Shown here one piece after another: positions 3-24,399 of a stretch of DNA of 33,542 bases. A model generated the notes under the pieces. The model had not been told where the DNA came from. It did not search any database and worked only from the letters and a program-made list of their open reading frames with translations. The translations under genes and the position numbers were made by a program. Source of the stretch: a virus; IMG/VR virus record IMGVR_UViG_3300034117_001199, positions 1 through 33,542 of that record; one strand, written 5' to 3'. Each line of letters starts with the position of its first letter. Positions within the stretch are counted from its first letter, which is position 1.

Positions 3-593
3 ATTGTTTCTGATGACGATGAACTCCAAGTATACCCGTATGATATAAGGGATATAATCAAAGAATGTGAAGAAAATAAGTTTACATTTGTAAGTGGTGG
101 TTTTTTAGATAGGATTGGACCGGATGGTACCTTTCCTGTTGTTAATAGAGACACCAACATCCACGAAGCGTTCCCATATGCGGGATACTTTAGGTATCCA
201 ATGTCAAATGCTTGTCCAAATAAAGTAACATTAATGCTTGGTTCTCAAGACATTACGTCAGGTCAACACTACGCAGATTTTGGATATAATAAAAATAGTT
301 GGGGGAGATGGCACAGAAAACGAATGCCGATTGATATTGTTTTTACACAGGTACACCATTTCAAATGGGACTCAACATGTAATGTAAGAATAAAAGAAGT
401 TGCAGATACGAGGATTGATTATAGTTGGTTTTGGGAGTATGAAAAATTATATGAAAATTTAGAATCAACCAATTGGGTAGTAGATTTAAATAATCCTGAG
501 TATTTTTTTGAAAAATTGAATAATTTTTCGTATATTGACTATAATGACTACTCAAAGTGGAATATATTAAGAGATAAAATAGTACTAATCTAA
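3..593 (+). CDS. Probable glycosyltransferase, C-terminal part (5' end outside window)
   Basis: The reading frame is open from the first bases of the window, so the 5' end is missing; 196 codons plus stop are present. An internal ATG at 201 is not the real start because the same frame continues upstream without a stop. Visible near the beginning is an acidic DDDE stretch, like the DxD metal/nucleotide-sugar site of GT-A glycosyltransferases. Further on are SGGFLDRIG and, after a Gly-Gln-His-Tyr segment, HHFKWDST, which resemble the acceptor-side blocks of family-2-like enzymes that use an H-x-x-W element. The stop is one base before the next ATG, so it belongs to the radical SAM operon. The protein ends in DKIVLI, like many genes here. 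Family assignment is by motif reading only; another nucleotide-sugar enzyme is possible. Confidence 0.6.
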   Translation: MVSDDDELQVYPYDIRDIIKECEENKFTFVSGGFLDRIGPDGTFPVVNRDTNIHEAFPYAGYFRYPMSNACPNKVTLMLGSQDITSGQHYADFGYNKNSWGRWHRKRMPIDIVFTQVHHFKWDSTCNVRIKEVADTRIDYSWFWEYEKLYENLESTNWVVDLNNPEYFFEKLNNFSYIDYNDYSKWNILRDKIVLI

Positions 594-594
594 T

Positions 595-1959
595 ATGAAC
601 AAAAAAACACCAGTAAGTGACACGTTTTGCATTTTACCTTGGAATCATCTAATGATTCAACCGAATGGTAATATACAACCATGTTGCATGACTCCACATG
701 ATATGCCAATTGGTAACACTAAAGATGATACTTTGGAAGAGGTGTGGAATGGATTTGTTATGAAGAACATTCGTAAAAAGATGTTAAAGGGTGAAAGACC
801 GATGCTTTGTAATAGATGTTATATGATGGAGGATAATGGTGCGGTTAGTCCGAGAGTTAATCTTACTGATAAATTTAGAAGAGATGTTAAAGATTTAGTT
901 GCACAAACAGACCCCGAAACAGGACATAGTAACACGTTCACTTTAAAATATTGGGATTTTAGATTTTCAAATATCTGTAACTTTAAATGTAGAATGTGTG
1001 GAACATTTGCAAGTAGTAAATGGGTGGATGATGAGATGGCATTACACGGAAAATCTTTTAATGGTTTAATGAATTTTAGAAGTGAATCCAAAGAGGACAT
1101 AATGAACTATGTTGATAAATTTATCTACGATGTTGAAGAGATATACTTCGCTGGTGGTGAACCTCTTATCATGGACGAACACTACATTATATTAGAGAAG
1201 TTAATTGCTGCAGGTAGAACGGATGTGTTATTAAGATATAACACAAACTTCAGTCACATCCAATTTAAAAAATGGGATTTACAAAAATTGTGGAAACCAT
1301 TCATCGATAACCCAAGAGGTAGGGTACAACTATTTGCATCATTAGATGCGGTTGGTCCTGTTGCCGAATTAGCTCGAAATGGTACTAAATGGAATGATGT
1401 ACATAACAATATTAAAACGGCATTAAGTAGCGGTGTTGAAGTATTCGTATCACCAACAGTAAGTGTTATCAACGTATTCCACGTTACAGATTTATTTGAT
1501 ACAATTGTCAATTTAGGTGTTAAACCTGAATACATTATTTTTAATAACTTCTTAACTGACCCACAATGTTATGACATTAGAATTCTTCCCGAAGATTTAA
1601 AGGAGGAGTTGATGAGAAAGTTAGAAAAGTACGGAGATAATTTACCAAACGGACCATATAAAAATGCAATCAACAACGCAATTAATGCGTGGGTTAACTT
1701 TTTATATTCAGAGTTCAATGTTGATTTATTACAACTACAAATTAGTAGAAGAGAATTACTAAGAGTTACCACAATTTTAGATGTTAGAAGAAATGAAAAT
1801 TTCTTAGATGTCAATCCACAATATAAAGATTGGTTTGAGGAAATTAGAGCAACAATTAGAAACTACGAAACCGAAGAATCATTCTTCAGAGATAGAAGTT
1901 TACCTGAACAATTAATTGATGTTCCTAAAACCATTGATGATAAGAAAAACGTTTACTAA
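595..1959 (+). CDS. Twitch-domain radical SAM protein 1
   Basis: A 454-residue radical SAM enzyme. The 4Fe-4S motif CX3CX2C is at C128, C132 and C135, preceded by a beta strand (YWDFRFSN) as in the family, and the SAM-binding GGEP is at 187-190. The N-terminal 90 residues carry extra cysteines (C12, C30-C31, C72, C75) in a layout like a SPASM/twitch auxiliary cluster domain moved to the N terminus. Near the C terminus is a D-x-x-R-x-N-x-x-F block shared with paralogs 3 and 4. It starts one base after the preceding stop and its own stop overlaps the next ATG (TAATG), indicating translational coupling. The substrate is unknown. SPASM/twitch relatives modify peptides or sugars; nothing here fixes which. 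Confidence 0.9.
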   Translation: MNKKTPVSDTFCILPWNHLMIQPNGNIQPCCMTPHDMPIGNTKDDTLEEVWNGFVMKNIRKKMLKGERPMLCNRCYMMEDNGAVSPRVNLTDKFRRDVKDLVAQTDPETGHSNTFTLKYWDFRFSNICNFKCRMCGTFASSKWVDDEMALHGKSFNGLMNFRSESKEDIMNYVDKFIYDVEEIYFAGGEPLIMDEHYIILEKLIAAGRTDVLLRYNTNFSHIQFKKWDLQKLWKPFIDNPRGRVQLFASLDAVGPVAELARNGTKWNDVHNNIKTALSSGVEVFVSPTVSVINVFHVTDLFDTIVNLGVKPEYIIFNNFLTDPQCYDIRILPEDLKEELMRKLEKYGDNLPNGPYKNAINNAINAWVNFLYSEFNVDLLQLQISRRELLRVTTILDVRRNENFLDVNPQYKDWFEEIRATIRNYETEESFFRDRSLPEQLIDVPKTIDDKKNVY

Positions 1960-2975
1960 TGTTAGATAAAAAAGATTTTGTTTGTTTACAACCATTTGAG
2001 TTCACAGAGTTCTTTGACTATAAGACTTATATGTGTTGTCCAAACTGGTTACCTCACGATTTAGGTGACCCTAATAAAATTGCTGAAATATGGAATTCAG
2101 AATTGGCAAATAACATTAGAGAAAGTATGTTAGATGGTAGTTACAAATATTGTATCGAATCTAGATGTCCAAAATTAACAGGTCTTAAGGAAGGTAAAAG
2201 TGAAGGGTTCATTACCAAAGAAGAATTTTTAAGAGATAAAGAACTTTATGATTATCCCGTACCCAAAAGTGTTAAATTTAATTTCGACCAAAGTTGTAAT
2301 TTACAATGTCCAACTTGCAGAATTGAGAAAATAAATTACGAGGGTGAACTAAGAGATAGGACGGAACTTATTTTAGAAAATATTGAAACTCACTTAGCGG
2401 AGAACTTAGAACATATTGAATGTACGGGATCAGGTGACCCATTCTTTTCTAGAACATTTAGAAAATGGATGATGAAGTTCGACCCAAGCATTTATCCAAA
2501 CTTAAAAAGTATTCACTTACATACCAACGGAACTCTTTGGAACGAATCTAATTGGTCACGTATGGGTAGAATTTCTAAGTTCATAAAATCTGCGGAAATA
2601 TCTGTGGATGCAGCAACTAGAGAAACATATTCAATAACAAGACTAGGAGGTAATTGGGATGATATACAAACAAACTTAAGATTTATTGCAACCATACCAA
2701 CGATTGAATACCTAACTTTATCATTTGTGGTCCAAGATACGAATTATAAAGAAATGGAAATGTTTTATAAAATGACAGAAGAGATATTTGATGACACACA
2801 TATAAATTGGATGGTGTTCTATAATAGAGTTGTCAATTGGGGGACATTTAGTGAATCGGTTTTTAAAATTAAAGACGTTGGTAATCCTGAACATCCTGAA
2901 TATAAAAATATGGTTGAATTATATAAAAAATTACCATTGGCTAATAACATCCGACATAATTTAACTATTATATAA
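1959..2975 (+). CDS. Twitch-domain radical SAM protein 2 (short, divergent)
   Basis: This is the shortest of the array at 338 residues. It has CX3CX2C at C113, C117 and C120 and N-terminal cysteines at C9, C26-C27, C65 and C70. The GGEP motif is replaced by GSGDP (157-161), which still offers a glycine turn and an acidic residue in the SAM-binding position but is a clear departure from its neighbours. The C-terminal D-x-x-R-x-N-x-x-F block of paralogs 1, 3 and 4 is absent, which accounts for most of the size difference. It shares single-base overlaps (TAATG) with both flanking radical SAM genes. It could be an active enzyme of altered specificity or a partner subunit; the cluster cysteines are intact, so an inactive remnant seems less likely. 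It ends in NLTII. Confidence 0.85.
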   Translation: MLDKKDFVCLQPFEFTEFFDYKTYMCCPNWLPHDLGDPNKIAEIWNSELANNIRESMLDGSYKYCIESRCPKLTGLKEGKSEGFITKEEFLRDKELYDYPVPKSVKFNFDQSCNLQCPTCRIEKINYEGELRDRTELILENIETHLAENLEHIECTGSGDPFFSRTFRKWMMKFDPSIYPNLKSIHLHTNGTLWNESNWSRMGRISKFIKSAEISVDAATRETYSITRLGGNWDDIQTNLRFIATIPTIEYLTLSFVVQDTNYKEMEMFYKMTEEIFDDTHINWMVFYNRVVNWGTFSESVFKIKDVGNPEHPEYKNMVELYKKLPLANNIRHNLTII

Positions 2976-4246
2976 TGATTTGTAAAAATGTAACTAATGG
3001 ATTAAGAATTGCGACATCGGGAGCATACTTTGCTTGTTGTCACACATTCAATCATCCATTTAAAGATAAAGATGGTAACATAATGTTAGCGAGTACACAT
3101 ACTGTGGATGATGCCATGAATAGTGCCACTCGACAAGAGATGTTGGAATACTTTAAAGAAGATAAAAGACATCCGGCGTGTAAAGTATGTTGGGATGCTG
3201 AAGATGCGGGATTTGTTAGTAAGAGAGAACGTGATAATGATACGTTTAATATGTTCCCGCAAAGAAATAACGATGATTTATTTTTCTTAGAATTAAATTT
3301 AGGTAACACTTGTAATTTAGCTTGTAGAATATGTCACGTATCCGCATCGTCAAGATGGAGAAACTTTCATCATGTTACTGAACCAAACGTAACAGAAGAA
3401 AAATTAGACGAGTATGTTGCTAAATTTTCCAAATCATTTACTGACGATAGTATTGTTTGGGATGAATTGGGTAAAATACTACCTAAAGTTAGGACGGTTG
3501 ACATTTATGGAGGTGAACCAATGTTGATGAAAAAACAATGGGAGATTTTGGAAATGTGTGTTGAAAAGGGTTATTCAAAAAACCAACAAATGAGTTTCAA
3601 CACAAACGGAACAATCATAAACGACAAGTATGTTAACATATTAAGTTCTTTTGAACAATGTCGTATTGGTTTTAGTTTAGATGGAGTGGGTAAACGTTTT
3701 AACTATCTAAGATATTATGCAGATTGGGATGCAGTTAAAAATAATGTAACAAGTTGGAAAGAAAAGACTAAACACCTAAAAGACAATCAAATATTTTTTG
3801 AGGTATGTGCAACTATTTCAATTTTAAATGTTTTATATGTTTTTGAAATCATTGACTATGTTATTGAAAATGAGATTACATTATATGTTGCGTTTGTACA
3901 TAATCCGAAACACCTACACATTGGTTACATACCCGACCATATTAAATTAGTTATTATTGAAAGATTATCTACCGAATTAGAAAAAAGAACGTTAGATTTG
4001 AATAATGACCAAACACTTGACGAATCTCAAAAGAATTATAGAAGAAGAATCATATATCAAGCAGAAAAGGTAATCAATATGTTAAAGTTACCAAGACTTG
4101 ATGACGACCTCGAACCATGGGAGATTTTTATTAAACAGACTAACGACTTAGATGTTTTAAGAAATGAATCTTTTGCTGAGACTTTCCCCGAATTAGAAGA
4201 ATTATATAAAATTAAAAAACAAAAAACAACTAAAAAACTATTATAA
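2975..4246 (+). CDS. Twitch-domain radical SAM protein 3
   Basis: A 423-residue enzyme with CX3CX2C at C113, C117 and C120 and GGEP at 179-182. N-terminal twitch-like cysteines are at C3, C21-C22, C69 and C72, with the usual K-V-C-W-D-A-E-D block that also appears in paralog 4 as CSYCWKVED. A conserved C-terminal region, R-N-E-S-F-x-E-T-F-P followed by LEELYK, matches the R-N-K-N-F-R-E-T-F-P of paralog 4. After LEELYK there is an extra basic tail ending TTKKLL that the closest paralogs do not have. The gene begins at the TAATG overlap with the preceding gene and stops one base before the next start. Function: radical SAM chemistry on an unknown substrate. Confidence 0.9.
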   Translation: MICKNVTNGLRIATSGAYFACCHTFNHPFKDKDGNIMLASTHTVDDAMNSATRQEMLEYFKEDKRHPACKVCWDAEDAGFVSKRERDNDTFNMFPQRNNDDLFFLELNLGNTCNLACRICHVSASSRWRNFHHVTEPNVTEEKLDEYVAKFSKSFTDDSIVWDELGKILPKVRTVDIYGGEPMLMKKQWEILEMCVEKGYSKNQQMSFNTNGTIINDKYVNILSSFEQCRIGFSLDGVGKRFNYLRYYADWDAVKNNVTSWKEKTKHLKDNQIFFEVCATISILNVLYVFEIIDYVIENEITLYVAFVHNPKHLHIGYIPDHIKLVIIERLSTELEKRTLDLNNDQTLDESQKNYRRRIIYQAEKVINMLKLPRLDDDLEPWEIFIKQTNDLDVLRNESFAETFPELEELYKIKKQKTTKKLL

Positions 4247-4247
4247 C

Positions 4248-5720
4248 ATGTCAGAAAGATTATTAAAATTTAAAGAAGAACAATTAAACTCCGTAAGTTG
4301 TAGTTTTTGTCCTGCAAAATGGTACAATGCAACAATTGATTTAGGTAGTGGGTATTCTCGTTCATGCTTCTTACCATTACCCCATCCAATAGATGTGGAA
4401 GAAATAAAAACAAATCCATCGGCATTACATAACACTAAACATAAGAAAAAGATTAGAAAACAAATGCTTGAGGGTACAAGACCTGCTGAGTGTTCTTATT
4501 GTTGGAAGGTTGAAGACATTGGTAGAAATAATATATCTGATAGAGTTTATAGAAGTTTAGAATATAAACTAGAAGACATTGCGGTATTGAAAGATACTCC
4601 TTGGGATGCAAATGTGAATTTAAGAACGGTAGAATTATCTTTTGATAGAAGTTGTAATTTCGCGTGTTCATATTGTAACCCAAGTTATTCTACAACATGG
4701 GGTAGAGATATCGATAAACACGGACCATACCAAAAATTCAAAACATTAACCGCAGGTGCATATCAACAAAATGGTTCATGGGCGGACCCTGAAAATAAAT
4801 TTATTGGAGAGAACCCATACGTTGAGGCATTTTTAAAATGGTGGCCCGATTTATCAAAGGATTTACAAACATTGAGAATTACTGGTGGAGAGCCATCAAC
4901 TAGTCATAACTTTTGGAAATTTTTAGACCAAATTAAAAATCAATCGTATCCGAATCTTAATTTATCTATTAATTCTAATTTAGGTGTCAAAGATGAATTG
5001 ATCGACAAGTTAATTCAAACAACACACGAATTGGACATTCAATCATATGACATCTATACAAGTAACGAATCATATGGTGCACACGCCGAATATTTGAGAG
5101 ATGGTTTAATATATGATAAATGGAGAGCAAATGTTGTAAGAATGATTGAGGAGGCGAATATCAGACAAATCGTTATTATGATGACAGTTACAGGATTATC
5201 ATTAATGTCATTAACCGATTTCATGGACGATATGTTAGAGTTAAAGAAAAAGTACGGACCAAACAAACCAACAATGGATCTTAACTTTTTAAGATGGCCA
5301 GGATTTATGTCACCATTGAATCTACCTGATAACATTAAAATGGAGGCAAAAGATAAAATCCAAGTTTGGTTAGATAAAAATAGAGACTCAGGTTTATTAT
5401 TGGAACACGAAATCACCCAAACACAGAGAGTAATTGACTATATTGATGTTGTTGACCAAGGACATGCGAGAGCTGAGTTTGATAAGGACAAACACTTCCA
5501 CGACTTTAAAAGTTTTTATGAACAATATGATATTAGAAGAAACAAAAACTTTAGAGAGACGTTTCCAATGTTAGTTGAATGGTACGATAGTATTGTTGTT
5601 GATAATTACATTCCCGATGTTAAATTATCGCCAGGTGGTATGGAAGGATGGGAAACTGGAGAATATAAACCAGACATTATGAAACGAAACTTAGTAAGAC
5701 AAAACAATTTAAATGGATAA
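4248..5720 (+). CDS. Twitch-domain radical SAM protein 4
   Basis: The longest array member at 490 residues. CX3CX2C is at C136, C140 and C143, and the GGEP motif is at 213-216 (ITGGEP). There is a longer insertion between the cluster motif and GGEP than in the paralogs. N-terminal cysteines are at C18, C21, C40, C82 and C85. The C-terminal R-N-K-N-F-R-E-T-F-P block is followed by a further stretch of about 40 residues, unlike the other copies. The gene overlaps the next by eight bases, so ribosomes may re-initiate. All canonical residues for reductive SAM cleavage are visible, so it is probably active. Substrate unknown. Confidence 0.9.
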   Translation: MSERLLKFKEEQLNSVSCSFCPAKWYNATIDLGSGYSRSCFLPLPHPIDVEEIKTNPSALHNTKHKKKIRKQMLEGTRPAECSYCWKVEDIGRNNISDRVYRSLEYKLEDIAVLKDTPWDANVNLRTVELSFDRSCNFACSYCNPSYSTTWGRDIDKHGPYQKFKTLTAGAYQQNGSWADPENKFIGENPYVEAFLKWWPDLSKDLQTLRITGGEPSTSHNFWKFLDQIKNQSYPNLNLSINSNLGVKDELIDKLIQTTHELDIQSYDIYTSNESYGAHAEYLRDGLIYDKWRANVVRMIEEANIRQIVIMMTVTGLSLMSLTDFMDDMLELKKKYGPNKPTMDLNFLRWPGFMSPLNLPDNIKMEAKDKIQVWLDKNRDSGLLLEHEITQTQRVIDYIDVVDQGHARAEFDKDKHFHDFKSFYEQYDIRRNKNFRETFPMLVEWYDSIVVDNYIPDVKLSPGGMEGWETGEYKPDIMKRNLVRQNNLNG

Positions 5721-6963
5721 AAATTATAACAAAGAGACTTTTTGTGTGGCACCTTGGGTGTCCACACATTTAAGTACTTTCGGTAAAATCATTCCTTGTT
5801 GTTTATACAAACAAGAACGAGTATTTGGGGAATTAAAAAGCGAAGTATCGATTGAAGAATCGTATAATTCAGAGACCGCAAAAGAAGTTAGAAGACAATT
5901 GTGGAATGGTGAAAAAATAAACGAATGTCAAATATGTTGGTACCGAGAAGAAGTATCAAAAGATAAAAGTGTTGTCGATAGTTACCGATACAATTTATGG
6001 AATCGTTTTGGTAAAGACATCGATGCAATTATTGATAATACAAATGACGACTTTTCATTAAAGGAAGTTAAGTTTAAAATGATGGATTTACGTTTTGATA
6101 ATAAATGTAATCTAAAATGTCGTATTTGTAATCCAGGATTTTCATCTTCACTATACAAAGAATATAAAGACTTGGGATTTGGGAATTTTGTGGATTACGG
6201 ACAACCATATAGTCAATCTGTTAGTGATAATGATTATGAATTTATTAAGAGTCAATTAGGTAATGTTGAAGTCTTATTTTTTGCTGGAGGGGAACCACTT
6301 ACCCAAGACAAACACTATGAAATTCTACAACATTGTATTGATAAGGGATATGCAAAAAACATTACAGTATGGGTAACAACCAACTTCACTAAACTATTTT
6401 ACAAATCATATAATATTATTGAGATGTGGAAGCAGTTTAAGGCTGTTGAAATTACCGCAAGTATCGATGGATTTGAAGAAAGGGGAGAATATTTGAGAAA
6501 AGGTTCTAAGTGGGAACAAATTGTTGAGAACAGAAAAACACTACTAAAAGAAATGCCAAATATCTTCTTTGCAATTGTACCAACAATTAATTTAATGAAT
6601 AGTTACACAATAATTGATTTATATAAGAATTGGATAGAATCTGGTTATATTAGTCCAGGTAAAATGCATGTGAATTTACTCACACATCCAGAACATATGC
6701 AAATTAGAAATCTACCCGAAAACCATAAAGAAACGTTAAGAATTAAGTATGGTGAAATCATCCAATGGATAAAAAGTAAATCTTTTAAAAATAACGAAGG
6801 ACAAAAAGATATTGAACAATTTGAATTTGTACTTGGGTTACTAAATCAAGAACGTTCTGAAGAGGAGTATCAAAAATTTATAGAATTAACCTACAAAGTT
6901 GATAACTATCGAGGAGATGATTTTTTCAACATATTCACAGAATTTAAAGATTTCATCAACTAA
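5713..6963 (+). CDS. Twitch-domain radical SAM protein 5
   Basis: A 416-residue protein with CX3CX2C at C132, C136 and C139, the preceding strand M-M-D-L-R-F-D, and FFAGGEP with GGEP at 192-195. N-terminal twitch-like cysteines are C11, C29-C30, C72 and C75, starting with F-C-V-A-P-W, which is the same opening as F-C-I-L-P-W in paralog 1 and F-C-Y-L-P-F in paralog 6. These three therefore look like the most canonical members of the array. The stop codon shares one base with the next ATG (TAATG). No short basic C-terminal tail is present; it ends FKDFIN. Activity is likely; substrate unknown. Confidence 0.9.
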   Translation: MDKNYNKETFCVAPWVSTHLSTFGKIIPCCLYKQERVFGELKSEVSIEESYNSETAKEVRRQLWNGEKINECQICWYREEVSKDKSVVDSYRYNLWNRFGKDIDAIIDNTNDDFSLKEVKFKMMDLRFDNKCNLKCRICNPGFSSSLYKEYKDLGFGNFVDYGQPYSQSVSDNDYEFIKSQLGNVEVLFFAGGEPLTQDKHYEILQHCIDKGYAKNITVWVTTNFTKLFYKSYNIIEMWKQFKAVEITASIDGFEERGEYLRKGSKWEQIVENRKTLLKEMPNIFFAIVPTINLMNSYTIIDLYKNWIESGYISPGKMHVNLLTHPEHMQIRNLPENHKETLRIKYGEIIQWIKSKSFKNNEGQKDIEQFEFVLGLLNQERSEEEYQKFIELTYKVDNYRGDDFFNIFTEFKDFIN

Positions 6964-8198
6964 TGAATAAATTATTACCCAACACTTTTTGCTATTTACC
7001 ATTCGGTTCTATTTTCGTATTTCCAAATGGAAAGTTACACCCATGTTGTATTGCGTCCCCATTCAAAGAAGACATTAACTACCAAGACTTTAATTCAATT
7101 GATGAGGTAATCAATAGTGAACCATATAAAAGAATTAGAAAAGAGATGTTGGATGGAATTGCACCATCAGAATGTGCGGAATGTTTTATCTACAAAAATC
7201 AACATAAGGAAAATTCGAATAGAGAGTTTTATAATGAAATTGGTGACCCCGGTCTTTATAACTCAGATTATAGTGTAAACAAAATAGTGTACACCGATCT
7301 AAGATTGTCAAACCATTGTAATTTTAGATGTAGAATGTGTTATCACGGGTCATCATCAAGTTGGTACGATTACTGGGGTTATGTGATGGGTAAACCAGAT
7401 TATAATGATACAACAACAAGAATAATCACGGCAGGTGAAGATGGTATCGGTAAATTTTCAGAAAAAAACATAGACTCAATACGTAAAATTTATTTGGCTG
7501 GTGGAGAACCATTCATCACACCAACAACCTTTGAATTGTTAGATAGGTTCACAAACGAACAGGCTAGTAATGTATCAGTATTGGTTAATACTAACCTATC
7601 AAATTTAACATATAAGGGAATAGACATCTTAGAAAAATTAAGTAAATTTAAATCTATTAACCTTTCTTGTTCTTGCGATGGATATGGTAAAATAGGTGAA
7701 TATCAGAGACCCGGTTTTAATACAAACAAATTCTTTAATAACTTAGAGACCCTATTAAAATTTAAAGAAACTCATCCGAACTTTATTGTTGAAATAGACT
7801 ACACCATTTCAACAATCAATATGTACCATACATTTGACTTTATTGATTTTGTTGGTAAAAATTATTTAGACTCAAATAAGATTAAAACCCACACTGTTAC
7901 ACAACCATTTTACTTTGCACCTGGTGCGTGTTCACCCGAAGTAAAGAAAGAATTGGTTAAATTTTATGAGGATAAAATGCGTAGTCTGAATTACGAATCA
8001 AATCGTTCACTTTTAAACACATTGGTGGAGTTTGTGAAATATTTAAAAGTAACAAATGAGGAGGATGTACAGAATCATTTAATGTCAAATAAACAACATA
8101 TGAGTATTTCATTGGAGGAAACGTTGAGGAGATTTGATGAAATAAATAACACGAGCTATAAGGATGTTTGTCCGTGGTTAGAGGAAATTTTTAAATAA
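6963..8198 (+). CDS. Twitch-domain radical SAM protein 6 (last of the array)
   Basis: A 411-residue protein closing the radical SAM array. CX3CX2C is at C119, C123 and C126 (HCNFRCRMC) and GGEP at 180-183 (YLAGGEP). N-terminal cysteines are C10, C28-C29, C71 and C74, with a P-N-G-K-L-H-P-C-C segment typical of SPASM/twitch cluster domains. The protein ends PWLEEIFK, matching the LEELYK region of paralog 3 but without that copy's extension. The gap to the following carbamoyltransferase start is 21 bases and AT-rich, so the array and the carbamoyltransferase are probably co-transcribed. Confidence 0.9.
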   Translation: MNKLLPNTFCYLPFGSIFVFPNGKLHPCCIASPFKEDINYQDFNSIDEVINSEPYKRIRKEMLDGIAPSECAECFIYKNQHKENSNREFYNEIGDPGLYNSDYSVNKIVYTDLRLSNHCNFRCRMCYHGSSSSWYDYWGYVMGKPDYNDTTTRIITAGEDGIGKFSEKNIDSIRKIYLAGGEPFITPTTFELLDRFTNEQASNVSVLVNTNLSNLTYKGIDILEKLSKFKSINLSCSCDGYGKIGEYQRPGFNTNKFFNNLETLLKFKETHPNFIVEIDYTISTINMYHTFDFIDFVGKNYLDSNKIKTHTVTQPFYFAPGACSPEVKKELVKFYEDKMRSLNYESNRSLLNTLVEFVKYLKVTNEEDVQNHLMSNKQHMSISLEETLRRFDEINNTSYKDVCPWLEEIFK

Positions 8199-8219: not shown

Positions 8220-9887
8220 ATGGGATATATAATTGGGATATCGGCTTATTACCACGATTCGTCGGCTTGTTTGTTCAGAAACGGACAACTTATCTTTGCT
8301 TGTGAAGAAGAAAAATTCACAGGTATAAAACATGACCACTCATTCCCAACAAAGACTTTAGAATACATATTTAAAAAATTTAAAATATCTAAAAAAGATA
8401 TAGAGACAATTTGTTATTATGAAGATCCAAAATTAAAAATTAAAAGGGTCATCGATAACATCAAACCACAACTTTTTAAAAACCCATTATATTCCATAAT
8501 GTCATATTTTAATACTCGTAAGAATATTATAAATTTGAATAAAAAATTAAAGGAATACTCAGATAATGTGTTTTTTTCAGAACATCATTTATCACATCAG
8601 TACTATTCATTTTTTACATCTAATTTTGAAAGTTCAATTGTCTTATCAATTGATGGTGTTGGTGAATATGATACATTATCTTTAGGTTTAGGTGATAATG
8701 TTGGGATAGACTACATTTCGATGGCAAAGTATCCACACTCAATTGGGTTATTCTATTCAGCCATGACCTCATTTTTAGGATTTAGACCAAATGAAGGTGA
8801 GTATAAGGTAATGGGTTTGGCACCATATGGTAATCCTGACATATACATAGATAAGGTTAGAGAATTAATTAATTATAAGAACACTAAACTAACGTGTAAT
8901 ATGGATGTCTTCACGTGGAACACATCAAACACACATATGTTTAATGAGAAACTAATAGAGTTGTTAGGTATCGAACCAAGAGTACCGGGTAGTGGAATAG
9001 AACCCCACCATAAAGACCTTGCGGCGTCAGTACAGAAAAGATACGAGGAGTTATTTTTTGAAATTATAAAATCAATTGCAATTATAAACGATAATCGAAA
9101 CCTTTGTTTAGGTGGTGGGTGTGCATACAACGGAACTTTAAATGGTAAGATAGTCAAGAATTCACACTTCAATAACCTATGGATACCACCAGCACCATCT
9201 GATGCGGGATCGTCGATAGGTGCTTGTTTACATTACCTTTCTAAGAATAAAAAATTGAAGGAGAGGGTAAATAAAAATCCATTTATTGGTCCTGAATTTT
9301 ATTATGATGATATATTAGCATCTATTAAAGATAAAAAATATTTTAAATTTAAAAGTGAGGAAAGTTTAATAAGAAATGTTGCGAAATTATTAAACGATGG
9401 TAAAATAGTTGGTTGGTATCATGGTAGAATGGAGTTCGGTGCTAGAGCGTTGGGAAACAGGAGCATATTAGCAAACCCAACTAGACCTGAGATGAAAGAT
9501 AAAATAAATAAAGTTATCAAAAAAAGGGAAGGATTTAGACCATTCGGACCTATGGTGAGTAAAGATAGTCAACATTTATTTTTTAATGTAAGTGATGACG
9601 TACCATATATGAATCAAGTTGTACAAGTTAAACCGGAACATAGAGAAAAATTACCAGCCATTACACATGTCGACGGAAGCGCCAGAATACAAACCGTTTA
9701 TCGGAATACAATTATCAACTTACTATTAAAGGAATTTGAAAAATTATCGGGATATCCCATACTATTAAACACTTCAATGAACATTAAAGATAAGACAATG
9801 GTTTTAACACCTAAAGATGCTGTCGATATGTTTTTTGAAACTAAAATGGACTTCATGGTTATCGGGAATTACTTACTATACAAATAA
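8220..9887 (+). CDS. Carbamoyltransferase, NodU/TobZ type
   Basis: A 555-residue two-domain enzyme. The N-terminal YrdC-independent Kae1-like domain begins G-I-S-A-Y-Y-H-D-S-S-A (H12 and following) and contains the metal-binding HHLSH at 122-126, then LSIDGVGEYD near 142-151 and the Y-K-V-M-G-L-A-P-Y-G block. The C-terminal domain carries the hallmark G-R-M-E-F-G-A-R-A-L-G-N-R-S segment near residues 400-413. These enzymes transfer a carbamoyl group from carbamoyl phosphate, via carbamoyl-AMP, to a hydroxyl of a sugar or small molecule (Nod factors, antibiotics, some glycans). Length is normal for the family. It follows the radical SAM genes closely and precedes genes for sulfate activation, so a glycan or small-molecule decoration role is likely, but the acceptor is unknown. 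Confidence 0.92.
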   Translation: MGYIIGISAYYHDSSACLFRNGQLIFACEEEKFTGIKHDHSFPTKTLEYIFKKFKISKKDIETICYYEDPKLKIKRVIDNIKPQLFKNPLYSIMSYFNTRKNIINLNKKLKEYSDNVFFSEHHLSHQYYSFFTSNFESSIVLSIDGVGEYDTLSLGLGDNVGIDYISMAKYPHSIGLFYSAMTSFLGFRPNEGEYKVMGLAPYGNPDIYIDKVRELINYKNTKLTCNMDVFTWNTSNTHMFNEKLIELLGIEPRVPGSGIEPHHKDLAASVQKRYEELFFEIIKSIAIINDNRNLCLGGGCAYNGTLNGKIVKNSHFNNLWIPPAPSDAGSSIGACLHYLSKNKKLKERVNKNPFIGPEFYYDDILASIKDKKYFKFKSEESLIRNVAKLLNDGKIVGWYHGRMEFGARALGNRSILANPTRPEMKDKINKVIKKREGFRPFGPMVSKDSQHLFFNVSDDVPYMNQVVQVKPEHREKLPAITHVDGSARIQTVYRNTIINLLLKEFEKLSGYPILLNTSMNIKDKTMVLTPKDAVDMFFETKMDFMVIGNYLLYK

Positions 9888-10011: not shown

Positions 10012-10040
10012 TTGTCTTTTTGGAATATTTTCATTATATT
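10012..10040 (+). promoter_or_regulatory. Sigma70-like promoter (TTGTCT-17-TATATT)
   Basis: A -35 element TTGTCT at 10012-10017, a 17-base spacer and a -10 element TATATT at 10035-10040. The ATG at 10050 would be only a few bases from the expected start of transcription, giving a nearly leaderless mRNA. The same architecture with the same -10 sequence occurs at 25524, 29775 and 31818. Confidence 0.65.
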
Positions 10041-10049
10041 AATAGTATT

Positions 10050-10484
10050 ATGATATATTGGTTAACAGGTCAACCCGGTGCCGGAAAAACAACATTAGCA
10101 AAATATTTGACAGAATACTTTCCGAAAAACAATGTCATCCATATTGATGGAGACGACTTAAGGGATGTCTTTAAAAATAAAGATTATTCCATCACAGGAA
10201 GAAGATTAAACATTCAAAGAGCTCAATACATTGCTCAATTTTTACATAGTAAAGGATATGTGGTGATAGTATCATTAGTTTCACCATATAGAGACCAAAG
10301 AGAGGAATTCAAATTCAACACATCCGTTACTGAAATTTATGTTCACACAACCGAAGATAGGGGTAGGAATCACTTCCATGTTGAGGAATACGAACCACCC
10401 TTGTTGAATTTTATAGATATAGATACAACAATAAAAAACGAAACAGATTCATATTATGAACTGTTAAAAAAATTATCATTATGA
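10050..10484 (+). CDS. cysC: Adenylylsulfate (APS) kinase-like protein
   Basis: A 144-residue P-loop kinase. The Walker A motif GQPGAGKT is at 7-14, D33-G-D-D-L-R is at 33-38 (the APS kinase DGDxxR motif), the N-I-Q-R helix follows at 54-57, and V-S-L-V-S-P-Y-R-D-Q-R at 74-84 matches the family's F-I-S-P-Y-R block. YEPP near 114-117 corresponds to the Y-E-x-P motif. Cellular APS kinases are usually about 170-200 residues, so the lid region is short here. The product PAPS is the donor used by sulfotransferases, two of which lie 4-5 kb downstream. The ATG at 10050 is chosen because an earlier in-frame ATG at 10020 lies between the -35 and -10 elements. The stop overlaps the next gene (ATGA). 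Confidence 0.82.
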   Translation: MIYWLTGQPGAGKTTLAKYLTEYFPKNNVIHIDGDDLRDVFKNKDYSITGRRLNIQRAQYIAQFLHSKGYVVIVSLVSPYRDQREEFKFNTSVTEIYVHTTEDRGRNHFHVEEYEPPLLNFIDIDTTIKNETDSYYELLKKLSL

Positions 10485-10843
10485 GTAAAAAGTACGCGAT
10501 GTACATCGGAAGATGGCAAAATTGGCACAAAGGACATGAATGGTTAATTAACCAACAATTGGAAAAGGGAAAGGATATTTGGGTGGCAATTAGAAACGTA
10601 CCCACAGATGAGAATAACCCAAAAACCGCACAACAAGTGATGATGGAATTGGTTGACACTAAATTCTTTATTGATAATTCACATAAGATCCAAGTATCTA
10701 TTATACCGGATATTGAATCAGTTAATTATGGTAGAGGGGTTGGATATGAGGTTATCTACCACGAACCCCCAACCGACATTGAGGTTATAAGTGGAACTAA
10801 AATCCGTAATGGAGAAATGAATTCAGATGGCAGTACAACGTAA
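10481..10843 (+). CDS. Small HxGH nucleotidyltransferase
   Basis: A 120-residue nucleotidyltransferase-fold protein. The HxGH motif is at 16-19 (WHKGH) after the first strand Y-A-M-Y-I-G-R-W, and ISGTKIR at 103-109 is the C-terminal phosphate-binding motif found in this superfamily, including ATP sulfurylase, PPAT and NMN adenylyltransferases. It is very short, containing essentially only the catalytic core. It overlaps the APS-kinase-like gene by four bases, which suggests a linked reaction; adenylation of sulfate would be an appealing role but ATP sulfurylases are normally much longer, so this is inference. A cytidylyltransferase or NMN adenylyltransferase-like role is equally consistent with the motifs. 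The last 17 bases overlap the next gene. Confidence 0.75.
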   Translation: MSKKYAMYIGRWQNWHKGHEWLINQQLEKGKDIWVAIRNVPTDENNPKTAQQVMMELVDTKFFIDNSHKIQVSIIPDIESVNYGRGVGYEVIYHEPPTDIEVISGTKIRNGEMNSDGSTT

Positions 10844-11042
10844 ACGACATATTGCTAAGACAATATCCTACAGAATTGTTAGTACCTTGATTGGATTTAT
10901 AATAATGTGGTGGATAAGTGGTTCCGTTAAGATTGGGGCGGCGTTCGGTGTTGCTGAACTTGTATATAAACCAATACAATATTACATCCATGAAAGGATT
11001 TGGTATAGGTGGATAAAATTCGGTCTAAAAGATAAAAAATAG
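10827..11042 (+). CDS. DUF2061 family small membrane protein
   Basis: A 71-residue protein matching the DUF2061 pattern: a basic start, K-T-I-S-Y-R-I-V-S-T, a first membrane helix (L-I-G-F-I-I-M-W-W-I), a G-x-x-K-I-G-A-A-F-G-V-A-E second helix, and the closing Y-Y-I-H-E-R-I-W signature. DUF2061 proteins are known to occur beside, or fused to, sulfate-activation genes in bacteria. Here it follows an APS-kinase-like gene and a nucleotidyltransferase with a 17-base overlap, so the three probably form one operon. Its biochemical function is not known; a role in sulfate handling at the inner membrane is inferred from context. Confidence 0.82.
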   Translation: MAVQRKRHIAKTISYRIVSTLIGFIIMWWISGSVKIGAAFGVAELVYKPIQYYIHERIWYRWIKFGLKDKK

Positions 11043-15565: not shown

Positions 15566-16129
15566 ATGTTTATTACGATAATTGCAGAACCAAGGAGTGG
15601 ATCAACTAATTTGGCTAAATGGTTTACTCGATACAAAAACTTTACGGTTTTACAGGAACCGACAAATAAAGAGAGTGTTAATTATAAAAAGGGGGAACCA
15701 ATTACTAATTGGACATATAATACCGAACATTTTTTAATTAAAGAAATCTATTTACCTGATACCGATTTAACAGAACTCATCAACCTATCCGATAAAGTAA
15801 TTTTACTTTACAGAGAAAATGATATCGAACAATTAGAATCTTGGTTAGTTGCAACTGAAACTAAAAATTGGGTTTTAGAATGGGTTACTAATCGAATTAA
15901 AATAACCAATCAAGAAGATAAGGAAAAATATTTTTATTCTCTTAAAAATGGTTTTAAAAATGAATACCTTAATAATGATAATTTTTTTAAAATATCATAC
16001 GAAGAACTATATTATAACAATGGGATTGAAAAAGTAATTAATTATTTAAATATTGATTACATTGAAAATAAAGACTTTCCATATGGTAAAAAATATAAAA
16101 TTATACAAAATACGAATAAATTGATATGA
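15566..16129 (+). CDS. Sulfotransferase-family protein 2
   Basis: A 187-residue protein beginning with the PAPS loop A-E-P-R-S-G-S-T-N (7-15), and with L-Y-R83-E-N-D-I-E-Q-L-E-S92-W as the 3'-phosphate-binding helix, followed by a conserved Trp-rich helix (TKNWVLEWV). It is shorter than most sulfotransferases, so it may be a minimal version. It begins directly after the stop of sulfotransferase 1 and overlaps the next gene (ATGA). The two copies differ enough in sequence to suggest different acceptors. It ends NTNKLI. Confidence 0.78.
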   Translation: MFITIIAEPRSGSTNLAKWFTRYKNFTVLQEPTNKESVNYKKGEPITNWTYNTEHFLIKEIYLPDTDLTELINLSDKVILLYRENDIEQLESWLVATETKNWVLEWVTNRIKITNQEDKEKYFYSLKNGFKNEYLNNDNFFKISYEELYYNNGIEKVINYLNIDYIENKDFPYGKKYKIIQNTNKLI

Positions 16130-16988: not shown

Positions 16989-19900
16989 ATGAATATATTT
17001 GACGCACATATATCGGGATCGTTATCCGTATCAAGTTCGGCCGAAATTTCGGGTGATTTAAACGTATTGGGGACTTTAAGTGGTTCCTTTAAAGGTGACG
17101 GGTCAGAAATCACTAACATTCCCGCTAGCGGTGTCACAGGACTCAATTTAACACAAATTGCCGATGGTTCGGCTACCGCATCTATTTCCTCAGTAAACGG
17201 ATTAAGAATAAACACCGATACCGAAATAACGGGAGCATTAAAACTTAATGAAGTTGAATTGGGTAGTAATAACATTGTTGATATGACCCTAACAGATGGT
17301 GGTGGGAAATATTATATTAACGGAGTTAAAGCACCAAGATTATCCTTCATTAAGGGATTCAAATACAGATTCTATTATAATAACAATGAGACTCACCCAT
17401 TACTTTTCTCTTTAACTAGCGACGGGGAACACAATGGAGGTACAAGATACACCACCGGAATAACAACAAATTCCGATCCTTTCTATGTTGAAGTTGATGT
17501 TACCGATGCCACAGCCACAACATTCTATTATTGGTGCGACCATCACATTGGAATGGGTAATGCTATTTCGAAATATTCGGATTTTATGCATGGTCAATCT
17601 AACATCGGTCTCATTAATGTAGATACAACCACATTTGCCACAACCGGATCAAATAACTTTACAAATATACAAAGAACAAGTGGGTCGTTAGTAGTAACAG
17701 GTTCTGTTGATATTAGTGGTTCCCATAACGTTACAGGTTCAGTTAACATAACTGGTTCAATAACATTAAATGGTCAAGCGATTGGTACTGGTAAGTTAGA
17801 TGAAACAACTTTTCAGGCGTACACATCATCAAATGATGGTAGATTGTTTGCGATTGAAAATTCTACATCATCGTATAATACGTTTACAAGTTCTATAGAT
17901 ACAAGAATTAAGAACGAGATAAATGAAGAAAATGTCATCTCTGGATCAATTCAGGTTTTAATAACAGGAACCACAGGATACTCAACATTTAGTTCATCCG
18001 TTTCTTCAAGTATCGGCGAATTAAGTTCTAGTATTAGTGCAACAACATCTGGTTTAAGTTCAAGCATAGGTTCTTTAAGCTCATCTGTTGAAGGGGTGAC
18101 ATCGGGTCTTAGTTCATCAATAACTTCTTTAAGTTCTTCAGTAGCAACAACCACATCTGGATTAAGCTCAAGTATTGGAAGTTTATCTTCATCACTTAGT
18201 TCTACTAACGATACACAAAATGGTAGATTGGGTAGTATTGAATCTGCAACAAGTAGTTTAAATACATTTACCAGTTCAATTGATACAACAATTAAAAATA
18301 AAATTAATACCGACTCTGTTATATCTGGTAGTATTCAAGTGTCGATTACAGGAACTACGGGGTATTCAACATTTAGCTCAAGCATATCTACAAGTTTATC
18401 TGCGAGTGTTGCGTCATTAAGTTCTAGTATTAGTACGTCAATCGATAGTTTAAGTTCATCGATTGCCACAACAACTAGCGGTTTAAGCTCAAGTATTGGA
18501 AGCGTATCGTCATCACTAAGTACAACTAACGATACCCAAAATGGTAGATTAACAAGTATTGAAACATCAACCGGTTCGTTAAACTCATTCACATCTTCTA
18601 TTGATACAACAATTAAGAATAAACTTAATACTGAATCAGTAATATCTGGTAGTGTACAAGTTTTAATTACGGGAACTACCGGTTATTCAACATTTAGTTC
18701 AAGTGTATCCACAAGCATTAGTGAGTTGAGTTCTAGTGTGGGTACCGCAATTAATGGATTAAGTTCATCAGTTGCAACAACAACAAACGGATTAAGTTCT
18801 AGCATTGCCACAACAACAAGCGGGTTAACACTTTCAATAAGTTCTTTAAGTTCATCGGTTGCAACAACAACATCAGGACTAAGTTCAAGTATTGGAAGTT
18901 TATCTTCATCCATAGCAACAACAAATTTAGGTCAAAATAATAGATTAGATTCTATCGAAGGTAAAACCGGAAGTTATGCGACTACGGGATCGAATACATA
19001 TCAAGGTAATCAAACAATAACGGGGTCGTTATATATTTCAGAAAACTTAATAGTTGCCGGATCATCTTCGATTCAACATATCAGCTCATCTGTTGTTAAT
19101 ATAGCTGATAATATCATAACAGTTAACGCACAGAACCCAGCATTAAGATTCGGTGGTCTTTCGGTTATCGATAGTGGTTCTTCACCACAGGTGTCGGGTT
19201 CATTATTATTCGACGCAACTGAAAACGAATGGATATTTGTTCATCAAAATCAAACATCCGTTACATCGGCGTTATTAATAATGGGTCCTGAGACTTTTGA
19301 TGATTTAGGTAACGAAATTCATTTAACAAATAATAGATTAGTTAAATCAACGATTGATGAACACGTTGGTGATAGTAATATTACAGACACCGGTACAAAG
19401 GTTTCTATAAATTCAAATACAGAAGTAACTGGGACATTAAAAGTTACAGGAAATATAACTAGCCCTAATATAACTGCAATAGAAACATCTACCAGCAGTT
19501 TAAATACTTTCACATCATCATTATTAACGGCTGTGGAATTAACCGGATCTAACTTAACTGTTAGAGGTAACTTATTGGTTAAAGGAACAACAACAAACGT
19601 TAATACATCAACATTAGATGTTGATAACAATTTAATTAATCTTAATGGTGCCGGCGCATCTAATGCGGGTCTAAGAGTAAAAGATATCACCGGAGTAAGT
19701 CAAATTTCTGGCTCACTATTATGGGATGCAACAAATGATTATTGGATTGCCGGTCAATTAGGTTCTGAACAAAGATTAGTAAGAGAAACTGAATTTAATA
19801 CACAAGTTACTAGAATTGGTAATCTTGAAACAAGTAGTGGTTCATTAAATTCATTCACATCCTCTATTAATACAACTATTAAAAGTAAATTAAATACTGA

Positions 19901-22115: not shown

Positions 22116-22134
22116 AATCCGTATATTATACAAT

Positions 22135-23274
22135 ATGTTAAGAGAAAACGTAGAAGTTAGTGGTTCATTAAATGTAAGTGGACAATATATCATACCTAAA
22201 GGACCAAGGGCTAACAGACCGACTAGTCCTGATATTGGTTCATTATATCTAGAGGAATCAACTAGTGGTAGTTTTGTTGTAACATACACGGCATCCTCAA
22301 ACTATGATGGTGGGTGGGAACCAGTTGGTTCACAAAATACCGATAGAACAGGATTCAAATATAGACAGGTTGTAAATTTTTCATATTTAGCTGGAGGTTA
22401 TAAGGACGCCTCACCTTGGAAAAATGTTCATAGAACAACAAATTCAACGGATCAGACGGTTCACTTAGGTGAACTATTAGATTATCCGGCATCATATACG
22501 TCCGGTGCTTGTAGTAAAAGTATTTTATTTCTTTGGTCAACAAACACAGACGGTACATTTAAAGGAGATAGTACTATTCACTCAACGTGGACTAGTGGTG
22601 TACATATGGTTAATGAAACAGCTTATGCTCACCAATCAAAATGGGATTTAGCGAATGCAAGAGATGACTGCGGTACTTTACATCAAGAAACAGAATTTGC
22701 ATGGATATTTGGTGCGGGTGTGGCTGCAGTTGAAAAATTTAATCTAACAAACGAAACAATGTATAGTGTATACTATCAGGCTGGTGAACCATACATTACT
22801 ACAACATCATCAATTACTGGTAGTGGACCATCAGGTGCTTCGGGATTTTCTGACGAAAACTACGGATATGGTTGGACACAACAAAGCGGAACTAAGTTAT
22901 TTTTTGCAAATGATACATTTACAAACAATCAACAATGGGGTGCTAGTGGACAACAAAAAGGAATTAGCTCAAAAGTTGGAAAAGGGTATGCCGGAAACGA
23001 AGGTACATACAATGGTGGTTATAACTTAAGAAGGTGGAATGTTTTTACTGAAACAAATATCGGTAACGTATCGAAGCCTCATCCTAACTGCGGTGAAGAA
23101 AATTTCACAATGGGACAAGACCATCAGTATATGTTGGGATGTTACGACGGACTTCAAGTAAACACCAGTTGGAAATTTGTTTATACGACAGACACAGGAA
23201 CAGTTAATCCTAGTGGATTGGCTCCCGGTGTAAATGGAGGAACATCATCGGGACATTGTGGTTGGAGAACATAA
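22135..23274 (+). CDS. Tail/adhesin-like paralog A
   Basis: A 379-residue protein, first of three tandem paralogs. It begins with the same V-E-V-S-G-S-L neck as the large fibre, then a R-A-N-R-P-T-S-P linker with Y-L-E-E-S-T-S-G-S-F. The long C-terminal domain has S-Y-L-A-G-G-Y-K-D, Y-T-S-G-A-C-S-K, K-V-G-K-G-Y-A-G-N-E-G, H-P-N-C-G-E-E-N-F and a final S-G-H-C-G-W-R. Three to five conserved Cys residues (GAC, NCG, GHC) could bind metal or form a disulfide. It follows the fibre gene after 19 bases, so it is probably a fibre tip or receptor-binding protein. It differs from B and C by a Y-Y-Q-A-G-E-P insert. The family is recognised only as a marine-phage type, without a known function. Confidence 0.7.
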   Translation: MLRENVEVSGSLNVSGQYIIPKGPRANRPTSPDIGSLYLEESTSGSFVVTYTASSNYDGGWEPVGSQNTDRTGFKYRQVVNFSYLAGGYKDASPWKNVHRTTNSTDQTVHLGELLDYPASYTSGACSKSILFLWSTNTDGTFKGDSTIHSTWTSGVHMVNETAYAHQSKWDLANARDDCGTLHQETEFAWIFGAGVAAVEKFNLTNETMYSVYYQAGEPYITTTSSITGSGPSGASGFSDENYGYGWTQQSGTKLFFANDTFTNNQQWGASGQQKGISSKVGKGYAGNEGTYNGGYNLRRWNVFTETNIGNVSKPHPNCGEENFTMGQDHQYMLGCYDGLQVNTSWKFVYTTDTGTVNPSGLAPGVNGGTSSGHCGWRT

Positions 23275-23292
23275 AATTTGTATTTATAAGAT

Positions 23293-24399
23293 ATGCTACA
23301 CGAAAATATAGAAATAAGCGGTTCGTTAAGAGGACAAGGGGTAACCAAACCACCAACAGGAACACGGGCCAATAGACCAAGTAGTCCACAAACCGGTTCA
23401 TTATACTTAGAACAGGCGGTTAGTGGTAGTTTCTTAATGGTTTATGCTGGAATTAGTAATAATGATAGTGGTTGGGTTAGAGTGTCATCACAAGTAAATG
23501 CTAATGTTGGATTTAAATTCAGACAAATAATTAGTGTTTCTTATCTTGCTGGTGGATACAAAGATTCATCTCCTTGGAAAAATGTTCACAAAACAATTAA
23601 TTCTACCGATCAAACAACACACATTGGAGAATTATTAGATTTTCCCGCAACATATACATCAGGTGCTTGTAGTAAATATATCTTTTTTGTTTGGTCTGTT
23701 AATACAGATGGTGCATTTAAAGGACCAACTGATGTTCATAGTATTAGAACATCAGCTATTAATATGGCGAATGATACAAAATATGCACATAATGTTAAAT
23801 TTAATATAACAAATGCAAGAAGTGACGTGGGAACTATGCACAAAGAAACAGAATATGCGTATATGTTTGCTGCGGGTAGTACCACGGTTGAAAAATTTGA
23901 CCTAAGTACTGAAACAATTGCAACTGGTTTTAACTTAACAACAATTGATGGTAGTGACGGGGCTTCGGCTTTTTCCGATGAAAATTTTGGTTATGGTTGG
24001 ACATCTGCATCGGGCGTTAAAATGAGTTTTGCCACAGAAACCTTCCAATCGTCCACCCAATGGGGTGCACACTCACAACAAAAAGGTATCAGCTCAAAAG
24101 TTGGAAAAGGGTATGCCGGAAACGAAGGTTCATACAATGGTGGTTATAACCTTAGACGATGGAGCAACGCTAACGACACCAACATAGGTAACGTTGCAAA
24201 ACCTCACCCTAACTGTGGAGAAGAAAACTTTACATTAGGTCAAGACCATCAATATATGTTAGGAAATTATGATGGAGCACAAAATAATACAAGTTGGAAA
24301 TTCTTCTATTCGACAGATACGGGAACGACCAGTGTGAGTGGATTAAACCCTGGAGTAAACGCCGGAACATCATCGGGTCATTGTGGATGGAGAGCATAA
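23293..24399 (+). CDS. Tail/adhesin-like paralog B
   Basis: A 368-residue paralog of the preceding protein, with the same order of blocks: I-E-I-S-G-S-L neck, R-A-N-R-P-S-S-P linker, S-Y-L-A-G-G-Y-K-D, G-A-C-S-K, S-S-K-V-G-K-G-Y-A-G-N-E-G-S, H-P-N-C-G-E-E-N-F, and the S-G-H-C-G-W-R end. Identity with A is patchy: the C-terminal domain is close while the stretch around residues 150-230 varies, as expected for a receptor-contacting region. Short DNA stretches are identical to A and other stretches to C, suggesting gene conversion. The Arg in the linker uses a rare CGG codon. Confidence 0.7.
   Translation: MLHENIEISGSLRGQGVTKPPTGTRANRPSSPQTGSLYLEQAVSGSFLMVYAGISNNDSGWVRVSSQVNANVGFKFRQIISVSYLAGGYKDSSPWKNVHKTINSTDQTTHIGELLDFPATYTSGACSKYIFFVWSVNTDGAFKGPTDVHSIRTSAINMANDTKYAHNVKFNITNARSDVGTMHKETEYAYMFAAGSTTVEKFDLSTETIATGFNLTTIDGSDGASAFSDENFGYGWTSASGVKMSFATETFQSSTQWGAHSQQKGISSKVGKGYAGNEGSYNGGYNLRRWSNANDTNIGNVAKPHPNCGEENFTLGQDHQYMLGNYDGAQNNTSWKFFYSTDTGTTSVSGLNPGVNAGTSSGHCGWRA

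Follow-up and report, generated by a model that had tools for sequence, protein, structure and literature searches.

The analyzed window is a 33.5-kb viral fragment (33,542 nucleotides); the T4-like capsid gene gp23 is present in sister contigs. ORF calls placed six radical SAM genes, designated A to F, side by side on the plus strand at positions 595–8198, as an earlier note on this DNA had claimed. rSAM A (595–1959), B (1959–2975), C (2975–4246), D (4248–5720), E (5713–6963), and F (6963–8198) encode proteins of 454, 338, 423, 490, 416, and 411 amino acids, respectively, the same range of 338–490 residues as previously given. The junctions also exactly matched the earlier description. TAATG joins A to B, B to C, and E to F; one base separates C from D; and D and E overlap by 8 bases. 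One base lies between A and the preceding ORF, and 21 bases lie between F and the ORF of the following carbamoyltransferase.

The preceding ORF (3–593, plus strand) is the 3' part of a glycosyltransferase-like gene. Its full-length homologue in a related contig (L008:9160–9999, 279 amino acids, 91% identical) matched the GT2-type Pfam family Glyco_tranf_2_4 below the threshold (24.6 bits vs 27.5 bits; E 3.5e-5), and an SDDDEL motif is invariant in this family. This truncated ORF is the glycosyltransferase that the earlier note placed before the array; in sister contigs, unmistakable GT7-type glycosyltransferases are located just upstream. The carbamoyltransferase expected after the array was clearly recognized. 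The gene at 8220–9887 (plus strand, 555 amino acids) encodes an O-carbamoyltransferase of the NodU/TobZ/NovN type with the Pfam domains Carbam_trans_N and Carbam_trans_C (207 and 210 bits), and its best PDB matches were NovN, GdmN, and TobZ.

All six proteins contain the CX3CX2C motif, which lies at residues 128, 113, 113, 136, 132, and 119 in A to F and places them in the radical SAM superfamily, and all have five Cys residues N-terminal to it. Four of these five form the twitch-type pattern C-x17/18-C ... C-x2-C (x4 in B), and the fifth is the partner in a CC pair (C18 in D). The N-terminal four-Cys pattern was present in 354 of 362 collected relatives, compared with 12.7 expected from shuffled N-termini, which rules out a chance origin of the Cys patterns. 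The Pfam radical SAM core (PF04055) was matched with E-values of 2e-12 to 7e-6, B falling slightly under the cut-off. Five proteins passed the curated cut-off of 170 bits for NF033640 (N_Twi_rSAM), with scores of 278–379 bits (A, 378.7; C, 284; D, 305; E, 354; F, 278). B scored 65 bits and was not assigned to this family; judging from its Cys pattern, it resembles an N_Twi_rSAM member, though outside the formal family. Pfam SPASM matches were located N-terminally in A (residues 12–76), E, and F, and profile matching of the N-terminal domain gave, among others, the BtrN twitch. Thus, the N-terminal twitch-like domains and the SPASM/twitch cluster pattern proposed for the array are borne out by the ligand pattern in all six proteins and by the family assignment of five.

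The six proteins were compared with each other and with their orthologues. The paralogues are 21–30% identical to A, consistent with the strong divergence claimed before. Orthologues in other viral contigs are 53–96% identical (72–96% for A and 60–88% for B), and their order is unchanged. Patristic distances were 2.8–7.5 among the six and 0.35–0.9 to most orthologues, and the D clade was supported at 0.999. The low paralogue identity and the tree rule out a recent tandem duplication and indicate ancient paralogues. The order A–F is kept in three further contigs, and A–D in others, which agrees with the outcome that the earlier note had named as support. Genes closely related to A, B, C, E, and F turned up exclusively in the same arrays, with the exception of C, which also occurs in one diverged, interleaved array; an occurrence of these five as singletons with unrelated neighbours was therefore rejected. 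Every pair with unsaturated dS showed purifying selection (dN/dS about 0.04–0.22; 0.14–0.22 for C).

That the order stayed fixed and the coupling tight over a long divergence speaks for a pathway that the genes share. This persistence counts against the explanation that they have no common product and encode generic auxiliary or support enzymes, such as enzymes of cofactor or metal-enzyme maturation or viperin-like enzymes with antiviral or nucleotide functions. This explanation, which we consider improbable, gains some weight from the variable composition of arrays among viruses and from the radical SAM core, which weakly resembles viperins and, in NCBIfam, metalloenzyme maturases. However, the viperin matches were restricted to the core, and the best scores, 42.7 bits in PADLOC and 36.5 bits in NCBIfam, were far under the equivalog cut-off of 180 bits (NF038283), so that the proteins were not classified as viperins (pVip).

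The array probably belongs to a T4-like marine myovirus and sits in its tail-fibre/host-recognition cluster, as suggested by the gene content of related contigs. In the sister contig L011, fibre-like genes border the block on one side and tail sheath/tube-like genes on the other, all on one strand, and gp23 was detected in 12 of the 16 array-bearing records; the placement rests on these related records, the window itself being a fragment. A gene for a Ser/Gly-rich fibre protein of 1,708 amino acids and other fibre genes are on the operon strand.

Carbohydrate-type genes recur around the arrays. GT7 glycosyltransferases and LamG-lectin proteins are encoded upstream of the arrays in sister contigs, and in L130 GT7-type and epimerase-like genes are interleaved with the array genes. 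In L033, D′ carries a fused lectin-like domain (E 3.6e-5), and in L080 an A-like enzyme is joined to a sulfotransferase-like domain. The window also encodes a small sulfotransferase-like P-loop protein (15566–16129, plus strand), which matched the N-terminus of this fusion protein (L080:16487–18415, E 5.4e-8) and weakly matched Pfam Sulfotransfer_3 (E 0.084). The O-carbamoyltransferase family was found in 14 of the 16 array-bearing virus records, while a tblastn search matched 144 of 50,697 phage records. It was not found in a 251-kb relative of the window's lineage. A StrB1-like inosamine-phosphate amidinotransferase is encoded near the arrays of relatives (E 9e-97), and a scyllo-inositol/sugar-type (DegT) aminotransferase near one array; the amidinotransferase was not found in the same 251-kb relative. 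Families 0 and 1, conserved proteins encoded directly upstream of D′-D in 39 loci, had been labeled by eye as glycosyltransferases. Neither Pfam nor PDB supported this label, and a tally in which 50 of 59 loci had GT-type neighbours was dropped as evidence for this reason. The model of another conserved partner family near the arrays (P, pLDDT 75) had no PDB match.

Alternatively, the array could act on a RiPP-like peptide or on protein, in the latter case on residues of the large fibre proteins encoded next to it. Most characterized twitch/SPASM enzymes act on peptides, several members of the array show sub-cut-off NCBIfam similarity to peptide maturases, and the fibre genes on the operon strand would be candidate substrates. 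The AF2 model of D (pLDDT 85) gave only weak, core-level matches to PDB structures, in which the peptide enzymes EpeE and SuiB were about equal to the sugar enzymes AprD4, DesII, and BlsE, and the sole match in a profile search with D was a weak one to MoaA. The array has no room for a conserved precursor peptide gene, and none was found in the gaps of the window, L008, or L010; a single small ORF is conserved downstream, and its product resembles a membrane protein. The PqqD/RRE leader-binding domain was detected in none of the 16 array-bearing virus records. The neighbouring genes and the fused domains, together with the fact that these searches found neither a precursor peptide nor a PqqD domain, favour a carbohydrate substrate, so that we regard a peptide or protein substrate as unlikely. 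The earlier suggestion of a glycan or a peptide is thus narrowed towards carbohydrate by the gene context, but not by the structure matches of D, which are about equal for both.

The carbohydrate-type genes also resemble an aminoglycoside-like part list, as StrB1-like amidinotransferase, DegT aminotransferase, TobZ/NovN-like carbamoyltransferase, and BtrN-like twitch are all represented. Hence the array might make a diffusible small molecule of the aminocyclitol/aminoglycoside type rather than edit a polymer. However, the complete enzyme set is absent from the window and no cyclitol synthase was identified, and both the tail-fibre cluster placement and the lectin domains suggest a surface polymer. 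We consider a diffusible product very unlikely.

The keystone of the arrays is D, whose family was found in 78 viral loci, mostly in arrays of 2–8 such genes. Related loci are phylogenetically non-independent. Array composition differs among viruses, and up to 19 N-twitch family matches occur on a single viral contig. D had no match in isolate phages, and A, C, and E gave only distant Vibrio-phage homologues, with one marine record in addition for E. Collinear arrays and D relatives were also found on chromosomes of Bdellovibrionota, bacteria of a predatory type, where most arrays adjoin housekeeping genes and lack glycosyltransferases. Some relatives carry MetK, SufT-like, and A-type Fe-S carriers, and in some a gene assigned only at the level of the nucleosidase superfamily lies inside the array; 5'-deoxyadenosine inhibits radical SAM enzymes (PMC8102628). 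The 251-kb relative from the lineage of the window yielded neither MetK nor the A-type carrier, and such a support kit is therefore lineage-specific rather than universal.

Our preferred explanation, which we hold about as probable as its negation, is that the array, as part of the host-recognition cluster of a phage, tailors sugars with a line of several enzymes. The sequences show an operon structure, intact ligands of the SAM and twitch clusters, paralogues of old origin in a fixed order, purifying selection, and a recurrent linkage to carbohydrate enzymes. A to F would form a translationally coupled operon of ancient, specialized N-terminal-twitch radical SAM enzymes. Each enzyme would cleave SAM to a 5'-deoxyadenosyl radical and thereby remove hydrogen at one unactivated C-H position in the sugar residues that the adjacent glycosyltransferases have added. 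The outcome would be epimerized, deoxygenated, or oxidized sugars, comparable to the action of twitch/SPASM enzymes such as BtrN, AprD4, and NeoN on aminoglycosides, and the O-carbamoyltransferase would then cap a hydroxyl. D may perform the core step, with the other members as an exchangeable set deciding the final pattern, and all six may work one after another on the same product, which probably serves to decorate virion fibres or to remodel the glycan of the host surface. In a more far-reaching reading, which we consider unlikely, a viral radical SAM assembly line would rewrite C-H positions of a surface glycan into aminoglycoside-like, guanidino- or carbamoyl-bearing sugars and would be exchanged with Bdellovibrionota, where collinear arrays would serve the bacterial surfaces; in some viruses it would bring along a SAM synthetase, an Fe-S carrier, and a nucleosidase that clears 5'-deoxyadenosine.

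BtrN, AprD4, and NeoN are twitch/SPASM enzymes that work on aminoglycosides. Together with TobZ-type carbamoyltransferase and the amidinotransferase StrB1, they combine enzyme classes similar to those described here for sugar/cyclitol tailoring; the array twitch is similar to BtrN and the array carbamoyltransferase to TobZ/NovN. The aminoglycoside enzymes act on small molecules, and the twitch of BtrN is C-terminal, whereas the present enzymes have an N-terminal twitch, are many tandem paralogues, and lie in a phage tail-fibre region. A, C, D, E, and F match N_Twi_rSAM over their full length, including the N-terminal twitch, but this model represents a subfamily without assigned function and is silent on ordered arrays, and B is too divergent for it.

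The locus, whose viral nature the earlier note had not mentioned, belongs to a kind of phage multi-radical-SAM cassette already known in T4-like phages (PMC2853527, PMC5332604, PMC7029224). The T4-like Campylobacter phages CP220 and CPt10 contain several radical SAM genes and an amidinotransferase in an interchangeable block, whose gene contents differ between the two phages (PMC2853527). The CP220 amidinotransferase is 30% identical to that of the sister loci. Its radical SAM proteins scored at most 31 bits against N_Twi_rSAM, mainly by core matches, so that CP220 is not supported as a homologous array; in contrast, the array order is conserved here. Pelagimyophages carry radical SAM cassettes in the host-recognition cluster (PMC7029224), and a T4-like TARA genome has 12 radical SAM genes and an Fe-S carrier (PMC5332604). 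These marine myoviruses share with the present loci a hypervariable tail-fibre region with glycosyltransferases and many radical SAM genes, and the Fe-S carrier with some relatives; an N-terminal twitch, a keystone gene, a fixed order, fusions, and chromosomal bacterial counterparts are not mentioned in the text available (PMC7029224, PMC5332604). An ordered N-twitch array common to viruses and bacteria appears to be undescribed in the literature searched.

Studies of radical SAM enzymes usually deal with one or two of them at once and with small-molecule or peptide substrates. Arrays that keep a fixed order under purifying selection, in marine viruses and on bacterial chromosomes, would be a natural series for learning how radical enzymes share the editing of one polymer. 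With D and the carbamoyltransferase as markers, further loci of this kind can be located, and what the unassigned N_Twi_rSAM family does can now be put to a direct test. Should the product be a glycan, phages and their relatives would synthesize chemically unusual sugars, with a bearing on adsorption, superinfection exclusion, and host recognition.

The lengths, overlaps and motifs that the earlier note had described for the six consecutive radical SAM (rSAM) genes A to F (595–8198, + strand) were all borne out when the sequence was re-read, and CX3CX2C and five N-terminal Cys residues are present in all six proteins. A, C, D, E, and F passed the 170-bit cut-off of the NCBIfam profile N_Twi_rSAM (NF033640), whereas B scored 65 bits. 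Pfam SPASM was placed N-terminally in A, E, and F, and profile matches of the N-terminal stretch included the twitch domain of BtrN. The N-terminal Cys pattern is far above chance, occurring in 354 of 362 relatives versus 12.7 with shuffled N-termini.

Conservation of gene order among homologous arrays, which the earlier note had named as support for its reading, was observed. The order A-B-C-D-E-F is identical in three related loci (L008, L009, and L010), and other contigs carry A-B-C-D or whatever portion of the order fits on the contig; C is missing from one array (L021). Orthologues share 53–96% identity in aligned comparisons versus 21–30% for paralogues, and dN/dS was about 0.035–0.22 for pairs with unsaturated dS. 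The same note had weighed two contrary cases. Six very recent duplicates are contradicted by a midpoint-rooted FastTree phylogeny of 161 sequences, in which each protein clustered with its orthologues, at a wide distance from the other five. D fell inside the clade of D and its paralogue D' (support 0.999), and the deep branching of A, C, E, and F relative to one another was weakly supported. Singletons with unrelated neighbours did not appear either: relatives of A, B, C, E, and F were recovered only in arrays, which for C include an interleaved one (L130).

A search with D (4248–5720) recovered 78 viral loci at 34–100% identity, with D' adjoining D in most of them and arrays of 2–8 genes. 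Junctions were close (211 of 217 were overlaps or gaps of ≤ 30 bases), and one 103-kb viral record gave 19 family matches, a few partial. D was found in no isolate phage of the collection searched. Vibrio phages K566 and K567 carry a distant cluster of three to four N-twitch rSAM genes, only partly annotated as radical SAM in K566 (L090:11971–18707). A protein family of about 300–360 aa (L066:15661–16713, alignment A4), for which Pfam, PHROG, and PDB fold searches gave no match, neighbours the arrays at many viral loci; at L099 and L110, both Bdellovibrionota loci, it lies beside D.

Ten loci were found in the bacterial collection. Three of them look viral and include phage structural genes; the others belong to Bdellovibrionota-type bins (Bacteriovoracaceae, Oligoflexia, Bdellovibrionales, and one titled only 'bacterium'), several having, by inspection, clear chromosomal neighbours (Obg, Lgt, and ATP-synthase genes). 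One bacterial locus (L093) has five array genes whose types, as judged from their nearest neighbours in the tree, come in the order seen in viral L051 and L058. The family cut-off was passed in 16 of 59 sampled genomes of the Bdellovibrionota phylum group, mostly metagenome assemblies. In a Bdellovibrionota-type genome (L104:10739–14515), a carbamoyltransferase 40% identical to that of the window is separated by about 700 bases from an N-twitch rSAM gene of A type, echoing the viral linkage.

The conserved ligands and the support genes in some relatives count toward the array enzymes being active as radical SAM enzymes. One group of relatives has MetK, SufT-like genes, and, within the array, a gene of the PNP_UDP_1 nucleosidase superfamily; 5′-deoxyadenosine inhibits rSAM enzymes (PMC8102628). 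At L065:13798–17941, the nucleosidase-superfamily gene lies within the array with MetK (SAM synthetase) and SufT-like genes nearby, a set that may serve radical SAM enzymes as a support kit in one viral lineage. A-type Fe-S carriers were found in 6 of 16 array records and MetK in 135 of 50,697 phage records. Neither MetK nor the Fe-S carrier was found in the close 251-kb relative of the window, and they therefore lie outside the core.

Several features count toward a carbohydrate substrate: GT7 and LamG genes near arrays, GT7-type and epimerase-like genes interleaved with array genes in L130, an N-terminal domain on a D' enzyme (L033) that matches, with E 3.6e-5, the lectin domain associated with GT7, an amidinotransferase in sister loci whose closest match is StrB1, and a sugar/inositol-type aminotransferase on one viral-looking contig. 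In an A-like enzyme (L080), one domain is a homologue of the window's sulfotransferase-like protein at 15566–16129 (E 5.4e-8). A carbamoyltransferase, located at 8220–9887 in the window, occurs in 14 of 16 array records, whereas tblastn hit 144 of 50,697 phage records, a comparison that is indicative only as the methods differ. A peptide (RiPP) product is a rival reading; no precursor ORF was found in the array or in the gaps of the window, L008, and L010, and no PqqD domain in the 16 array-bearing virus records, both of which argue against it. The confident model of D (pLDDT 85) matched both peptide and sugar enzymes in the PDB at the core level only, and aligned almost end to end with uncharacterised phage radical SAM models.

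The window is a complete IMG/VR record (33,542 bases, linear viral fragment) in which the left context of the array is cut off. L008 and L010 have the same glycosyltransferase-like gene upstream of the array, plus two GT7-family genes, and a lectin domain was also found in the tested member of that GT7 family. Three genes at 10020–11042 of the window recur in both loci: one for a kinase similar to adenylylsulfate kinase, a small one of nucleotidyltransferase type, and a 71-aa ORF resembling a membrane protein. As 12 of 16 array-bearing relative records carry the T4-type capsid gene gp23, the virus is most likely one of the T4-like myoviruses. By inspection or Pfam/PHROG, its cargo includes fibre-like repeat proteins and 2OG-oxygenase, sulfotransferase-like, and SGNH-like genes. 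The region 16989–25522 encodes a fibre-like protein of 1,708 aa, marked by Ser/Gly-rich repeats and a tandem repeat of 117 bp, and then three tandem paralogues of 368–379 aa, the first matching phrog_1417. A second, unrelated radical SAM gene (27084–28085), sub-threshold for N_Twi_rSAM, overlaps a gene of the conserved phage family phrog_1458/phrog_36869 with a Cys-rich C-terminus; this pair (27084–29122) is possibly another Fe-S pair. In the region 29813–31815, a tRNA-Arg (CCG; 29813–29905) precedes an outer-membrane-protein-like protein and a DUF401/CitMHS-like transporter, the latter two being unusual phage cargo.

Multi-rSAM blocks in T4-like phages are already known: CP220/CPt10 have them with an amidinotransferase (PMC2853527), and two further reports describe 12 rSAM genes plus an Fe-S carrier in a TARA T4-like genome (PMC5332604) and rSAM cassettes in host-recognition clusters of pelagimyophages (PMC7029224). 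A literature search of open-licence papers found no description of an N-twitch array that combines fixed order with a keystone gene, of lectin and sulfotransferase-like fusions of array enzymes, or of collinear array copies on Bdellovibrionota chromosomes.

In L011, a related locus, the array block is flanked by fibre-like genes on one side and by tail sheath/tube-like genes on the other. Pelagimyophage glycosyltransferases are interpreted as remodelling the host O-chain (PMC7029224), and the array product might by that view act likewise. The co-direction of the array with tail genes suggests instead that its product may decorate the virion.
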